DNA from: a virus
Virus record (IMG/VR): IMGVR_UViG_3300044729_003417
Location: 1-26,519 of that record
DNA length: 26,519 nt
Reading direction: 5' to 3' (one strand)
In this document: in pieces, positions 16,257 through 22,780 of the stretch
Position numbering within the stretch: position 1 is the first letter of the stretch
Layout: the number at the start of each line of letters is the position of its first letter
Made by a program: the position numbers and the translations under genes
Notes under the pieces: model-generated
The model's input: only the letters and a program-made list of their open reading frames with translations
Database searches by the model: none
What the model was told of the DNA's origin: nothing

Positions 16257-16334
16257 TTTTTTGATTTTTAATTAAACATACATAAATATATAAACTTTGA
16301 ATCAAAGATCCAAATCTTTTTGTAGCTTTTTTTA
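16257..16334 (-). promoter_or_regulatory. Shared upstream module, divergent copy C
   Basis: On the minus strand it begins right after the upstream stop with AAAAAGCTACAAAAAGATTT and GGATC, as in copy A. The second half differs: there is no TATAAT or AATAAGAGAT, only TATATATTTATG and a poly-A run before the ATG at 16256. The first box is kept and the second is lost or replaced. Confidence 0.45.
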
Positions 16335-16730
16335 AAATTGTTTTGGTATCGGTGTAGCACGTCGTCCACCTTTTTTACGGCGGTCTTCTAACTCTTCGGC
16401 TACTTCTATCTCAGCATTAATCATCAATGTTAAAACACTTTTATCATTCATGTCATTAGCTAAATTAGAATATTTACGGAATGATCCAGCACCACCGGCA
16501 GCTGCTTCTTTAGCAGTTTTTGCTAATCCTTCGATACGGCGAGCAATCTCTCTACGTAATGCAGAACGAGTCAATGTACCCCAGCCGACGATGTGTATTT
16601 CAGGATCGATAGGATCAAAATTATTTGGATCTAAAAGACCTCCATACTTATATGATCGTTCAGTCAATACAGACTTAATTTCCTCTTGGATAATCTGATT
16701 TAATTTAGTACGGAGATCTTTGTTATCCAT
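16332..16730 (-). CDS. Leader-bearing phage protein, probable virion component (132 aa)
   Basis: The N-terminus, DLRTKLNQIIQEEIKSVLTE, has the same IIxEEI amphipathic leader as the proteins starting at 2814 and 19567. The leader ends in LTE, a possible prohead-protease site. The body reads GGLLDPNNFDPIDPEIHIVG, then a helical segment with RREIARRIEGLAKTAKEAA, and ends in a basic GGRRATPIPKQF. I recall this family in marine myoviruses without a function. It is followed by the shared module (copy C) and preceded by the histone-like gene. Confidence 0.75.
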   Translation of the reverse strand: MDNKDLRTKLNQIIQEEIKSVLTERSYKYGGLLDPNNFDPIDPEIHIVGWGTLTRSALRREIARRIEGLAKTAKEAAAGGAGSFRKYSNLANDMNDKSVLTLMINAEIEVAEELEDRRKKGGRRATPIPKQF

Positions 16731-18176: not shown

Positions 18177-18542
18177 TTACTTAAGAAATCGTAATTTATA
18201 TACGGTTGAATTGATAAGTTCATTGATAGTATCCAATTGATTCTGGATGTATGTATCTTTTACTTTACCATGTATATCTTCAACCTTTTTAGATAATGCT
18301 TTAAAATATGTTATGAGTTGAGAATTACTTGAATAGTTATCTAAACTGTAATTTTTATATGATTTAATGATGTCATATTTGCCTTGGTATGCTTCTGCTA
18401 ATCCATCTATCAAACCTACGATACCGTCATAATATCCACCCAATGCCATATGCTCAGCAAATGATTTAGTTTGTAGGTGATAGATATGTGTTTGCGTTCT
18501 TGAATGCAGTAACTGTGATATCAACTCTTCTAACTCTTTCAT
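18177..18542 (-). CDS. Dps/ferritin-like four-helix protein
   Basis: The 121-residue helical protein aligns with Dps near its N-terminus. His19, His31, Asp46 and Glu50 (in THIYHLQTKSFAEHMALG and LIDGLAEAY) have the same spacings, 12, 15 and 4, as the ferroxidase residues His51, His63, Asp78 and Glu82 of E. coli Dps. The Asp67 ligand is replaced by Gly35. Dps stores iron and shields DNA from oxidants. The protein is shorter than Dps (about 167 residues) and lacks a basic DNA-binding tail. I believe such phage proteins are listed as a DUF (possibly DUF5856). TAATG couples it to the leader-bearing gene upstream. Confidence 0.65.
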   Translation of the reverse strand: MKELEELISQLLHSRTQTHIYHLQTKSFAEHMALGGYYDGIVGLIDGLAEAYQGKYDIIKSYKNYSLDNYSSNSQLITYFKALSKKVEDIHGKVKDTYIQNQLDTINELINSTVYKLRFLK

Positions 18543-19567
18543 TATACTTTACCTGCTTTTAATGAGTTAACAATCTGTTTAACTTCTAATGCATAACCAC
18601 GAATTGATGATGCTCTATAGCTATCAACCGCGGACGATCCATAACGTTTTTTCTCTTCTTCCGCTTGATTAACAGCTGATACATACTGCTCATATTTTTG
18701 AAACAAACGATTCATTACATATGAAAGATCTGAAATTTTAATGTCTTTGCCATTAACGCTAGCAACTGGATATCCCCATTGGTCTGTACGTACAACGCTC
18801 ATTCCTTCGACGATAGCGTCATTGATAATTTGCATACCTTCTTTTACAACGCTATCTAATGCATCTTTACCAGCTACTCGAGTAGCTAAGATTTTTTTGT
18901 ATCGATCTAAATTGGCATTTTTATATCGTTTAGGATCGGTAAACATTTCAGTACCAACTTTCATTTCAGCTCTTTTAGCTTTCATTGCAGTAGTTCCGCC
19001 GCGGAATGATTCCAAATCAAAACGATACATTTTATCAGCTAACTCAACCAATTTTTTAAGTTGCATTGTACCACGAATTCCTTGACCCAACGGTGATGAT
19101 GTACTACGGCCTTTATCAGTTGTTACGCCTTGAACCGCGGACGTTTTATATCGTTGTTTGTCACCTCTAAAAGGATCTGCTGGCGGCATGCCGTACCGGT
19201 AAGGAGCTGACCCGCCATAATATAATGTTTTACCATCCAATGTCACTGCTAATAGACCAGGATTAATCGTCTGATCATATCCACCACCAACTCTTTCACG
19301 TCGTTCTGACATGTAAAATACCAAACCAGTTTTGGCCAATCGGCTATCGCCTGTAATATCTTGGAATGATCCGGCTGGTACCTTATCCCATGCGATATCA
19401 TATTTTCTTGCAATTGCATTGAATATTTTTTTCTGTTCGCTTGGTGTTGTACCAATGTTTTTATGAATTTCACGTGCAATCGGATCTGCAAAATCTTCAT
19501 TGATTTGACCACGTAATGCCGCTATAATTTCTTCTTTTATAATTCGTTTGATGTCTGATCGTTTCAT
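18542..19567 (-). CDS. Leader-bearing protein, possible virion/injected protein (341 aa)
   Basis: I chose the ATG at 19567, with AAGGTGA upstream; the frame to 19576 needs a GTG start. The first 22 residues, MKRSDIKRIIKEEIIAALRG, followed by QINED, form the same amphipathic leader seen at 2814 and 16730. INE could be a prohead-protease site. The body has Gly-rich strands (GLLAVTLDGKTLYYGGSAPY), a basic segment (SSPLGQGIRGTMQLKKLVEL) and helical C-terminal parts. No family recognised. TAATG couples it to the Dps-like gene. Confidence 0.75.
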   Translation of the reverse strand: MKRSDIKRIIKEEIIAALRGQINEDFADPIAREIHKNIGTTPSEQKKIFNAIARKYDIAWDKVPAGSFQDITGDSRLAKTGLVFYMSERRERVGGGYDQTINPGLLAVTLDGKTLYYGGSAPYRYGMPPADPFRGDKQRYKTSAVQGVTTDKGRSTSSPLGQGIRGTMQLKKLVELADKMYRFDLESFRGGTTAMKAKRAEMKVGTEMFTDPKRYKNANLDRYKKILATRVAGKDALDSVVKEGMQIINDAIVEGMSVVRTDQWGYPVASVNGKDIKISDLSYVMNRLFQKYEQYVSAVNQAEEEKKRYGSSAVDSYRASSIRGYALEVKQIVNSLKAGKV

Positions 19568-19585
19568 TGTTATCACCTTATTTTA

Positions 19586-19604: not shown

Positions 19605-19928
19605 TTATATTTCTTCGACTTGAATTTTATTGATGTTTATTTGGTTTGGATTTCGCGGGCTACCGTATTCATCCATAAAATCATCAGTACTGATCATCTC
19701 AGTTTCAAAATCATCTGGATCTATGTCCATCATCACTTTTGATATTATATCTGCTAACTCACCCTTTGGAATATCTAAGTTGACTTCTTTGTCAGAAGTA
19801 AATGCCATGAGTAAATTCGGCCGGGCGCCGCCTTTCGCATCCCAAATAAGAAGCATGTATTTTTTAATAGTTTTTGCCGGAGCTTCGTTTATTATATGTT
19901 CGTGCAATAATGATTTTAATTTTATCAT
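19605..19928 (-). CDS. Small leader-bearing protein (107 aa)
   Basis: The N-terminus, MIKLKSLLHEHIINEAPAK, resembles T4 capsid-targeting peptides (MKTYQEFI-x-EA); INE-A would be a natural prohead-protease site. The remainder is a short alpha/beta domain (KYMLLIWDAKGGARPNLLMA, PKGELADIISKVMMDID) with an acidic C-terminus. No family recognised. It is the first gene of the minus-strand run, next to the divergent plus-strand operon, with an ATATTTATAT box 16 bases upstream of its ATG. Confidence 0.7.
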   Translation of the reverse strand: MIKLKSLLHEHIINEAPAKTIKKYMLLIWDAKGGARPNLLMAFTSDKEVNLDIPKGELADIISKVMMDIDPDDFETEMISTDDFMDEYGSPRNPNQININKIQVEEI

Positions 19929-20008
19929 GCTAATATCCTATTTGATATAAATATCGATCTAAATTAAAAACAATAATATTAATTAGTTTAATATTTATTA
20001 TAAATAGT
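19929..20008. promoter_or_regulatory. Divergent intergenic promoter region
   Basis: This 80-base AT-rich gap separates the minus-strand gene at 19928 from the plus-strand operon at 20009. On the minus strand ATATTTATAT lies at 19945-19954. On the plus strand AATATTTATTATAAATAG lies at 19990-20007, ending 1 base before the ATG at 20009. The plus-strand gene has no visible ribosome site, which is common in Bacteroidetes. Both directions are probably started here. Confidence 0.5.
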
Positions 20009-20605
20009 ATGAAAAGAGTTATTACATTAATATCATTTTTAAGTTGGTTTTTTTATGCCAATTCGCAATGTACCGGAACGCAATCTTTTACATTGACACC
20101 ACCACCTGTCGGAGGACAATATTTACCTGGACAAACCGTAACGATGTGTTATACAATGAACGGCTACAACCAGTTAGGTTCCAATTGGATTGAAGGATTT
20201 GATCTCACATTAGGACCGGGATGGGCATCCGTAACTCCACAATCTGCTCCGGCTAATTGTGGTGGAAATGGATCAGGAGGTCAATGGGTTTGGATGACAT
20301 CTGTAACATCAACTACTACGCCTATAACAACGGTAGGACCTGGTTATTTTTTCGATTTAACTATAGACGGTAATCCTGGAAATGACTTTGGTGATATGGG
20401 GTCATGTGTATGGACTTTCTGTGTAAATTTAACCGTTGCTAATGTATGTACACCTCAGAGTCTTTTACTTCAAGTTAGTGCTGGATCGGATGGCGTATGG
20501 GGTAGTTATACTAGTACATCATGTGATGTGATCACACCATTCACCGTATTTAACGGAACTATAAACGCAACTACACCAGTGGTAGGACCTATATCTCATA
20601 ATTAA
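20009..20605 (+). CDS. Exported Ig/PKD-like surface protein, first of a three-gene cassette
   Basis: A signal peptide covers residues 1-19 (MKRVITLISFLSWFFYANS), with cleavage predicted before Gln20, as in most Bacteroidetes Sec substrates. The mature part is a beta-rich, Cys-, Gly- and Thr-rich domain (QCTGTQSFTLTPPPVGG, CYTMNGYNQLGSNWIEGFDL, GSCVWTFCVNLTVANVC). I associate this kind of domain with secreted adhesin-like proteins of marine flavobacteria. The C-terminus ends in GPISHN, almost the same as the next protein. The lone Cys at residue 21 is not in a lipobox. No T9SS sorting domain of its own is visible. It is on the opposite strand to all neighbours. Confidence 0.85.
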   Translation: MKRVITLISFLSWFFYANSQCTGTQSFTLTPPPVGGQYLPGQTVTMCYTMNGYNQLGSNWIEGFDLTLGPGWASVTPQSAPANCGGNGSGGQWVWMTSVTSTTTPITTVGPGYFFDLTIDGNPGNDFGDMGSCVWTFCVNLTVANVCTPQSLLLQVSAGSDGVWGSYTSTSCDVITPFTVFNGTINATTPVVGPISHN

Positions 20606-20613
20606 GGAAACAT

Positions 20614-21174
20614 ATGAAAAAGTTTTTAACAGCAATTGCTTTAGTATTCGCCGGAACGGCATTTTCGCAATTAACAACATTAAACCCAGATACAGTTTGT
20701 TATCAAACAAATGGCTCAATTTATCAGGTCACGAATACCCCAGGATACGCATATACTTGGACAGTCGCCGCACCTGGTGTGATTACCTCAGGCCAAGGTA
20801 CAAATCAGATTGGAGTCAATTGGTCAGCAGCTGCGCCTGGACTAATTCCTAACGGCGTTACAGTTACAGCAACCGCCGGATCTTGTACATCTACACCGGT
20901 TACATTAAACGTGTTTATACTGCAAATTGTACCGACAATAACAGCTATTGGACCTTATTGTTCAACCGATCCATGTGTGAATTTAACAGGTACACCGGTG
21001 GGTGGAACATGGTCTGGAACAGGGGTTGTTGGTAATCAATTTTGCCCTGGTACGGCGGGTGCAGGAACGCATACTATTACATATACTATAACTCAAAATG
21101 GATGTACATTTACTGCAACTACAACAGTTACAGTAGGAGCTCAACCAGTATTAACACCTATATCTCATAACTAA
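20614..21174 (+). CDS. Exported PKD/Ig-like repeat protein, second of cassette
   Basis: A signal peptide spans residues 1-18 (ALVFAGTAFS, then Gln19). Residues about 22-102 form a PKD/Ig-like domain with the pattern AYTWTVAAPGVITSGQGTNQ and VTVTATAGSCTSTPVTL, typical of Bacteroidetes gliding and adhesin proteins. A second beta domain at about 105-180 has ITAIGPYCSTDPCVNLTGTP, GTWSGTGV and THTITYTITQNGCTFTATT. The protein ends in TPISHN, the same tail as the first protein. AAGGAAA lies 6 bases before the ATG, and TAATG couples it to the third gene. Confidence 0.88.
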   Translation: MKKFLTAIALVFAGTAFSQLTTLNPDTVCYQTNGSIYQVTNTPGYAYTWTVAAPGVITSGQGTNQIGVNWSAAAPGLIPNGVTVTATAGSCTSTPVTLNVFILQIVPTITAIGPYCSTDPCVNLTGTPVGGTWSGTGVVGNQFCPGTAGAGTHTITYTITQNGCTFTATTTVTVGAQPVLTPISHN

Positions 21175-21740
21175 TGAAACGCTTGTTTTACATATTATTT
21201 TTACCGTTGACAATGTTTGCACAACAGAACATTGAGATATGTGATAATACTCCTACATTTACATATTCTACGGAAATGAATGGCCCAGGTACAATTGAAT
21301 GGACAGTAAATAATACAGTTGCCGGTACCGGTAATGACATTAGTTTAACCTTCGATGAAGAAGGTATATACGAGATAACAGCAGTTGGTTATAATGATAT
21401 AGGATGTGCATCGGAACCTGTAAATTATACTGTTGTTATTACAAGTTGCGATCCACTTATTTATTGGGTTCCTAATTGTTTTACGCCCGATGGTAATGAA
21501 TATAATCAGGTATGGGGACCTATATTTACATCTGGTTATTCAGTAGATCATTTTCAATTATACGTTCTTAACAGGTGGGGAAATGTTGTTTGGGAATCCT
21601 TAGATCCAGCCGCAACATGGGATGGTACATATGATGGTAAAACAGTACCGGATGGCGTATATACTTGGTTAATTAGATTTGATCTTTTGAATACAGATGA
21701 GAAGCGTGAGATACATGGACATGTAACAATTGTACGTTAA
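21174..21740 (+). CDS. Exported protein with T9SS type-B sorting domain (gliding-motility-associated C-terminal domain)
   Basis: Residues 1-16 are a signal peptide (LFLPLTMFA, then Gln17). Residues 20-92 form one Ig/PKD-like domain with Cys23, Cys78 and Cys92. Residues about 97-188 match the CHU_C/T9SS type-B domain: WVPNCFTPDGNEYNQVWGP, LYVLNRWGNVVWES, TWDGTYDGKTVPDGVYTW and a terminal HGHVTIVR. Such domains carry cargo through the type IX secretion system and are common on gliding-bacterium surface proteins. A phage copy is unusual. The ATG overlaps the previous stop (TAATG), and its 3' end overlaps the thioesterase gene by 4 bases tail to tail. Confidence 0.9.
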   Translation: MKRLFYILFLPLTMFAQQNIEICDNTPTFTYSTEMNGPGTIEWTVNNTVAGTGNDISLTFDEEGIYEITAVGYNDIGCASEPVNYTVVITSCDPLIYWVPNCFTPDGNEYNQVWGPIFTSGYSVDHFQLYVLNRWGNVVWESLDPAATWDGTYDGKTVPDGVYTWLIRFDLLNTDEKREIHGHVTIVR

Positions 21741-22144
21741 CTAGCCGCATTTTCTAATAAATTCTTTACACGTATACGTGCTTTTTCGCCTAATGGAATT
21801 GGATGTCCTTCTTCATCTATATGTACAAATTTAATATGCGTTTTAAGTACAACAACTTGATTACCAGTGTATACATTATGGGCTCGCGCCTCCATATATA
21901 AATTGATAGATGAGTTGCCTATCGCTTGAGGATATCCGTATATTTTAACTAATTGTCCTTCTCGAGCCGGTTTTTCAAAATTACATTTATCAATACTAAC
22001 TGTTACCATTCTAGGTGTATCACATAACTGCATTGCATAACCAGCCGCGGATGCATCAATCCATGCTAAAAGCTTACCACCAAATAAGTTGCCATGAAAT
22101 CCTAAATCAGATTTCTTAATAGGATGTGAGTTTAAAAATTCCAT
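21737..22144 (-). CDS. Acyl-CoA thioesterase, hotdog fold
   Basis: The 135-residue protein has the hotdog thioesterase motif LGFHGNLFGGKLLAWIDASA at residues 14-33, with the active-site-type Asn19 and Asp30. It continues with RMVTVSIDKCNFEKPAREGQ and VVVLKTHIKFVHID, the strands of the fold. The closest pattern is the YciA/BFIT-like acyl-CoA thioesterases, which split acyl-CoA into fatty acid and CoA in the cytosol. It is unusual in a phage. It may change lipid metabolism or membrane composition during infection. It runs towards the surface-protein operon and overlaps its last 4 bases. Confidence 0.9.
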   Translation of the reverse strand: MEFLNSHPIKKSDLGFHGNLFGGKLLAWIDASAAGYAMQLCDTPRMVTVSIDKCNFEKPAREGQLVKIYGYPQAIGNSSINLYMEARAHNVYTGNQVVVLKTHIKFVHIDEEGHPIPLGEKARIRVKNLLENAAS

Positions 22145-22306: not shown

Positions 22307-22780
22307 TTATTTGTCAGATGTATCTGTTAATGAATATCTATCTTTATTTAGATCCTTAGCTAATTTAGTTTTAACAAACTGTTCATGACCTATCGCATCA
22401 TATATATTGCCTCGTGAATCCTGTACCCAATAATGTGGAATAAACTTCCACTGTTCAGCATATTTGCTATTCTCGATCCACTGCTTTCTCTCATTAGCAT
22501 TATTCCAATTCCCGCCATCCGAAATAAACTCTTGTTTCATTTCTTTGGTGAAGTCAGCTTTATCGTATACAACTGAGTCTGCCTTGAAGTATCCTTCTAT
22601 ACGCTTCAATCCTTGCACACCTTGCTTTGTTAAGAATTGCATAAAACTCAACGCTGCAGGGCCACAATTATCTCTTTTGCAGAAGTACTTTAGCTCTGAA
22701 GGACTTACAGTTTGTTTCCATCGAGTAATAAGACTCTCCGGTGATGCTGTTTCTTTCAGTAAATCTTTTAATCGTATCAT
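22307..22780 (-). CDS. Putative cysteine peptidase (C39/papain-like) with N-terminal leader
   Basis: The 157-residue protein starts MIRLKDLLKETASPES, a short leader like that of the gene at 19928; LKE could be a prohead-protease site. A Cys39 in RDNCGPAALSFMQFL begins a helix, and His116 in FIPHYWVQDSRGNIYDAIG, with Asp121 or Asp128, completes a Cys-His-Asp arrangement typical of C39, papain-like and transglutaminase folds. The substrate is unknown. If packaged, it could act on host or capsid proteins after injection. The predicted nucleophile and histidine are seen directly; the fold is inferred. Confidence 0.65.
   Translation of the reverse strand: MIRLKDLLKETASPESLITRWKQTVSPSELKYFCKRDNCGPAALSFMQFLTKQGVQGLKRIEGYFKADSVVYDKADFTKEMKQEFISDGGNWNNANERKQWIENSKYAEQWKFIPHYWVQDSRGNIYDAIGHEQFVKTKLAKDLNKDRYSLTDTSDK

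Follow-up and report, generated by a model that had tools for sequence, protein, structure and literature searches.

The window considered here is the whole of a 26,519-base IMG/VR virus record, a fragment of the genome of a T4-like phage. It contains a cassette of three genes, p1, p2 and p3, for which the coordinates, frames and strand given in the first-pass annotation are exact: an eight-base gap separates p1 from p2, and p2 and p3 overlap by one base within TAATG. They are also, as stated there, the only plus-strand genes of the window, all of the remaining convincing genes being on the minus strand. The cassette comprises the following features.

19992-19998, plus strand: TATTTAT box, a putative phage late promoter element upstream of p1 (recurrence in relatives).
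20009-20605, plus strand: p1 (slot 1), an exported Ig-like beta-sandwich protein of 198 amino acids and putative adhesin head (41 orthologues, AlphaFold2 model, dN/dS of 0.14).
20009-20065, plus strand: p1 signal peptide, residues 1-19, exposing the invariant Gln20 in accordance with the Q-rule (Gln20 invariant in alignments A1 and A4; sequence reading).
20588-20602, plus strand: C-terminal tail P-I-S-H-N of p1, with H and N invariant (alignments; synonymous codon variation).
20614-21174, plus strand: p2, an exported PKD-like protein of 186 amino acids and proposed adaptor (encoded by every split cassette identified).
20614-20667, plus strand: p2 signal peptide, residues 1-18, exposing the invariant Gln19 (alignment).
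20683-20913, plus strand: PKD_6 domain (PF19408) in p2 (7.4e-10).
21157-21171, plus strand: C-terminal tail P-I-S-H-N of p2 (63 of 63 distinct p2 proteins end in PI[QSGE]H[ND]).
21174-21740, plus strand: p3, a type B substrate of the type IX secretion system (T9SS), 188 amino acids, proposed carrier and anchor of the complex (CHU_C, TIGR04131).
21174-21221, plus strand: p3 signal peptide, residues 1-16, exposing the invariant Gln17 (17 aligned p3 proteins, Gln after a hydrophobic stretch; sequence reading).
21468-21731, plus strand: CHU_C/T9SS type B sorting domain of p3 (profile matches).

The phage context that had been proposed is borne out by the surrounding minus-strand genes, which encode baseplate wedge proteins of the gp6 and gp25 families, a UV-damage endonuclease-type protein, Hsp20 and a ClpP-like protease, together with ThyX and a recombinase/helicase-type ATPase. 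In comparisons of the baseplate, the nearest named records are Microcystis phage Mel-JY01, at 51% identity, and the immuto phages of Flavobacterium, which are in culture and whose baseplate gene is about 40% identical to that of the window. A thioesterase-like gene (phrog_18230; 21737-22144, minus strand) overlaps the end of p3 convergently, and a 94%-identical copy of it lies directly upstream of p1 in the relative L042. Many otherwise unrelated proteins of the window and its relatives share an N-terminal tag, for example MKKIIKLTESDLTRIVKRVIKEE or MDTKSFTSLLRKIIREEVRSAV. In the window it is found at 2308-2871, 16332-16730, 18542-19576, 19605-19928 and 22307-22780 (all minus strand), and it is found in dozens of ORFs in L176-L187. 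The tag is reminiscent of the T4 capsid-targeting sequence that is cut by the prohead protease, and it might label an extensive group of internal-head proteins destined for injection. A relative (G007, 81-116 kb; L180 and L181) has long stretches of glycosyltransferase-, sugar-epimerase- and methyltransferase-like genes, the predicted products of which suggest extensive phage-made glycan synthesis.

All three cassette proteins have the signal peptides previously ascribed to them: a hydrophobic stretch is followed by a Gln that is invariant in alignments of 16-41 relatives. Such a Gln directly after the signal peptide is what the Q-rule describes for substrates of signal peptidase I in Bacteroidetes (PMC5837995), and its presence in p1-p3 points to a Bacteroidota host. 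The HMM search that had been suggested for the C terminus of p3 identifies a complete CHU_C domain (PF13585; 1.4e-13, 51.2 bits against a 27-bit cut-off), and the TIGR04131 profile also matches (1.1e-11, 44.7 bits, cut-off 35). CHU_C is likewise above the cut-off in 15 of 15 large relative contigs. Predicted use of the T9SS by p3 is thus well supported by homology. In profile searches, no T9SS sorting domain was found in p1 or p2, both of which end in PI.HN instead. The original claim that the cassette appears to use the host T9SS is consequently supported for p3, with its type B domain, but p1 and p2 lack a T9SS signal and are not simply T9SS proteins.

Type B substrates act as adhesins and need five CTD motifs; they are both picked up and anchored by PorP/SprF-like shuttles (PMC12618676, PMC9143113). 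A cognate SprF-like shuttle is usually needed (PMC12618676). There is no SprF-like gene downstream of p3 in the window, and a PorP/SprF-like shuttle gene was not matched in 15 phage contigs by a search whose control also gave no match. On the result of this weak search, p3 would need a host shuttle, which is possible because crosstalk between similar CTDs has been documented (PMC12618676).

The assignment of PKD/Ig-like domains to all three proteins holds for p2 (PKD_6, 7.4e-10), is weak for the N-terminal PKD domain of p3 (0.025) and applies to p1 at the level of the fold only. Although p1 has no Pfam, NCBIfam or PHROG match, its AlphaFold2 model is a confident beta-sandwich (pLDDT of 83, pTM of 0.77). 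Foldseek matches of this model in the PDB are weak (best E of 1e-3, query-length TM below 0.5), and the one good fold match is to a GEVED-domain protein of Virus NIOZ-UU157 (2.5e-10, 35% identity). An apparent PDB match of p1 to iota-carbonic anhydrase (1.5e-5) was rejected as a repeat-sum artefact, the best single repeat scoring 0.18.

Searches of IMG/VR returned 39 contigs for p1 (68-84% identity) and 143 for p2. The three-gene order of the cassette is found again, as p1-p2-p3 or with another slot-1 gene, tightly spaced and between differing flanks, in nearly all relatives that are long enough; p1 is one to two kilobases further upstream in L112, L113 and L116. Contigs of 127 to 436 kb are among the carriers, and two of the relatives have T4-type terminase, portal, prohead protease and major head protein genes. 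The dN/dS values are 0.14 for p1, 0.21 for p2 and 0.29 for p3, and the p2 and p3 distances correlate at 0.84. The recurrent order and spacing, together with these dN/dS values, place the observation far beyond chance. No cellular relative of p1 or p2 was found in 84,980 bacterial and archaeal genomes using two short alignment-derived peptide patterns per scan, a sensitivity at which distant host relatives could escape, and p2 has no relative in the plasmid collection.

The key feature of the cassette, absent from the first-pass annotation, is a conserved C-terminal P-I-x-H-N tail on p1 and p2. In 49 distinct complete triads the last four residues of p1 are I-x-H-N (with one V), H and N never varying, behind a linker that is variable; p2 ends in P-I-x-H-N in the same triads, with a single D for N. 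More widely, 63 of 63 distinct p2 proteins end in PI[QSGE]H[ND] (two of them in HD), and 59 of the 60 proteins encoded directly upstream of p2 end in [IV].HN. The sole exception is a spacer ORF, with a tailed p1 one gene further upstream. The C-terminal residue of p3 is R or K, and p3 never ends in HN. The codons for I, H and N in the tail show synonymous variation, which indicates selection on the protein. Among 978 other distinct ORFs of at least 100 amino acids in these loci, only nine end in HN: eight of these encode exported proteins and accompany the cassette, and the last is an unrelated ORF on the minus strand. When all of IMG/VR was searched for the DNA pattern of the tail with the overlapping start codon, 48 of the 49 matches were p2 followed by p3. 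A natural in-frame p1-p2-p3 read-through (L002) was modelled with AlphaFold2, with TAA read as Q to serve as an artificial linker, as a means of showing tail docking; the model is poor (pLDDT of 60, pTM of 0.40) and the p2 tail is not resolved.

The tail is retained when the first gene is exchanged. Slot 1 is occupied by an unrelated glycine-rich ALK/LTK-type domain protein in L082, L098 and L106, by unrelated SprB-repeat proteins in L097 and L107 and by an unrelated 322-residue protein in L088, all of them tailed. In L004 and L117 the p1-type protein is longer, carrying an extra N-terminal domain together with an SprB-like repeat, and additional tailed proteins are present in L064 (propeller-like) and L109 (PKD). 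All of these modules resemble the cargo of host T9SS adhesins.

Fused versions of the cassette occur in other phages. The 634-kb phage LR745206 encodes a single 732-residue protein (P0001) consisting of an SprB-like repeat, p2 and p3, and the 642-kb phage LR756502 encodes a 1670-residue protein with a p1-type N-terminal part, SprB repeats, PKD and CHU_C. A further 15 distinct IMG/VR proteins are p2-p3 fusions. These CHU_C proteins share with the cassette the same p2-p3 (or p1 and CHU_C) modules, and the order of the modules is the gene order of the split cassettes; they differ in being one polypeptide with one signal peptide and no HN tail, the tail being present at the p2-p3 junction in none of the 16 fusions formed by P0001 and the 15 others. 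In a tree of p2 and p3, from which a further, divergent fusion match in L109 was left out, the split and fused forms fall on opposite sides of one well supported branch. The contrast between tail and fusion therefore represents a single evolutionary change, beside which the tails behind unrelated slot-1 proteins are independent support. Some phage contigs with a split cassette encode a second CHU_C protein, a long one, at another site (G001, L106 and L253; G006, L082), suggesting more than one surface complex per phage; in G001 the second protein is a p2-p3 fusion.

In most of the relatives, a TATTTAT box starts roughly 10-22 nucleotides upstream of the start codon of the slot-1 gene. In the relative G009 it is at -12 for p1, at -21 for the terminase, the prohead protease and another head-operon gene, and at -36 for the portal. 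The box also precedes other operon heads in the window and is common before genes without a known role, so that it marks a promoter class and does not prove timing. From these positions, the cassette appears to belong to a late class shared with packaging and head genes. TATTTAT is a better candidate for the late promoter than TATAAATA, which was rejected as a T4-type late promoter since it occurs at chance level in the window (eight found against 6.8 expected). The minus-strand gene starts 12344, 12711, 18093 and 25423 have a different conserved leader, TTTAAGTATAATAAAAAATAAGAGAT-ATG or a close variant of it, which heads operons including that of the RecA/helicase-type ATPase and probably represents a promoter class other than that of TATTTAT, either early or middle. 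Many relatives (L053-L061 and similar, L039 and L041) also have a conserved stretch, GGAGCTTTT.TTTT.(C)TTTGG, upstream of p1, which may represent a terminator or the last part of an adjacent gene.

The HN tail common to p1 and p2, the exchangeability of the first gene and the fused forms in other phages all point to a single complex of several subunits whose carrier is p3. We propose, with a probability of about 0.55, that the cassette encodes a late-made, adhesin-like surface complex that p3 carries through the host T9SS, with p1 and p2 joined by their PI.HN tails. The three proteins would cross the inner membrane by Sec and be cut before the glutamine, after which p3, with its type B signal, would take the complex through the host SprA translocon to a PorP/SprF-type anchor on the host surface. 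In this complex p1 would be the exchangeable head and p2 the adaptor, each held to the next subunit by its C-terminal tail, such that the tails would stand in for the covalent peptide bond of the one-polypeptide phages and p1 and p2 would hitchhike out with p3. The purpose may be to cover or fill sites on the surface of the dying cell, keeping rivals off it and progeny from binding to it or to debris, or alternatively to stick infected cells to their neighbours. The genes, their signals, the conservation, the fusions and the tail are observed; we infer the late timing, the hitchhiking, the binding by the tails, the surface location and the purpose from the comparisons described above; a tail-joined surface complex would be the simplest model to account for split genes, collinear fusions, tails on the non-carrier proteins only and swappable heads. 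Flavobacterium columnare T9SS and gliding mutants become phage resistant (PMC9233685), which implies that phages of such hosts depend on a T9SS-dependent surface.

The PI.HN tail might itself be a minimal secretion or sorting tag that is read by a host machine, in which case p1, p2 and p3 would be exported independently and no complex would be needed. Like sorting signals, it lies at the very end of the protein, and it follows several domains that are not homologous to one another; some additional tailed proteins are also encoded at a distance from p2-p3 (L064, 2270-3424). We nevertheless consider this unlikely, as the p2-type tail with the overlapping gene is nearly confined to p2-p3 cassettes in IMG/VR, the tail is missing from p2-p3 fusions and, among the loci collected for CHU_C, no tailed exported protein occurs without a nearby CHU_C gene.

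Action in the periplasm or at the translocon has a rather small probability. Here, p3 would occupy SprA or SprF-like shuttles and choke the T9SS, stripping the cell of T9SS-dependent receptors and adhesins and so excluding other phages. The resistance of the F. columnare mutants agrees with such an effect, as do the report that overproduced type B substrates outrun their shuttles (PMC12618676) and the lack of a shuttle match in the 15 phage contigs, given the silent control of that search. It would, however, leave unexplained the exchangeable adhesin-like slot 1, the shared tails and the long multi-domain fusions with SprB repeats. Moreover, the late expression suggested by the TATTTAT box fits less well with early superinfection exclusion.

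The first-pass annotation had offered virion-associated adhesins as its alternative, with p1-p3 as decoration or fibre proteins of the particle. Ig-like folds are frequent on virions and the TATTTAT box is common to structural genes, but Q-rule Sec signals and a T9SS domain would lead the proteins away from cytoplasmic assembly, the cassette lies apart from the baseplate and head operons, and none of the three matches a structural PHROG (p1 and p2 match no PHROG at all, and p3 has only a weak match to a PHROG of unknown function, 0.039), making this reading very improbable. That the cassette is host DNA misassembled onto a phage contig, or a passing cargo gene without function, might be suggested by its strand, opposite to that of its neighbours, and its slightly higher G+C, but is already refuted by its recurrence between differing flanks in dozens of phage assemblies that are independent of one another (one of them beside the 94%-identical thioesterase in L042). 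The dN/dS values well below 1, indicating purifying selection, and the lack of a cellular relative of p1 or p2 in the 84,980 genomes at the sensitivity used also speak against it, and the description as a phage cassette is upheld.

The proposed tail-joined surface complex has partial counterparts among known systems. Phage T5 Llp is a single lipoprotein that is exported to the cell surface and blocks it; the cassette would similarly place at the cell surface a phage protein that could mask a receptor, but as a putative T9SS-exported multi-subunit adhesin with no lipobox. Type B T9SS substrates such as SprB, Fjoh_3952 and PG1035 (PF13585, TIGR04131) are adhesins anchored by PorP/SprF-like proteins and, like p3, have a Sec signal peptide, Ig/PKD modules and a C-terminal type B domain. 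In contrast to these, the cassette is phage-encoded, its carrier has only 188 residues, p1 and p2 have PI.HN in place of a CTD and no SprF-like gene follows. The CHU_C region of p3 matches the C terminus of grappling hook protein A (GhpA) of Aureispira (PDB entry 9flp; 1.5e-8), which is a 5898-residue bacterial surface protein, whereas the cassette consists of three small phage proteins. Porphyromonas gingivalis phages also encode proteins without an assigned function that have Bacteroidetes-type signal peptides, but the paper describing them makes no mention of T9SS, a type B domain or an HN tail (PMC10367356). No report of phage-encoded T9SS cargo or of the HN tail was found among the open papers searched, and the literature searched gave no precedent for T9SS hitchhiking. 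The type of cargo is therefore known, while its use by a phage and the tag appear to be new.

More tentatively, and at somewhat less than even odds, PI.HN may be a general hitchhiking code that allows a small type B carrier to take proteins lacking a T9SS signal of their own through the T9SS, forming a plug-in surface-display platform with exchangeable heads that phages evolved or exploited. The tail-joined model lends itself to testing through its tail, its exchangeable slot 1 and the fused forms. Many Bacteroidota have the T9SS as their main machine for surface display; if the model is correct, phages would remodel the exterior of the infected cell through it, non-covalent co-export through the T9SS would exist, and a short tag could be used to display other proteins on Bacteroidota.
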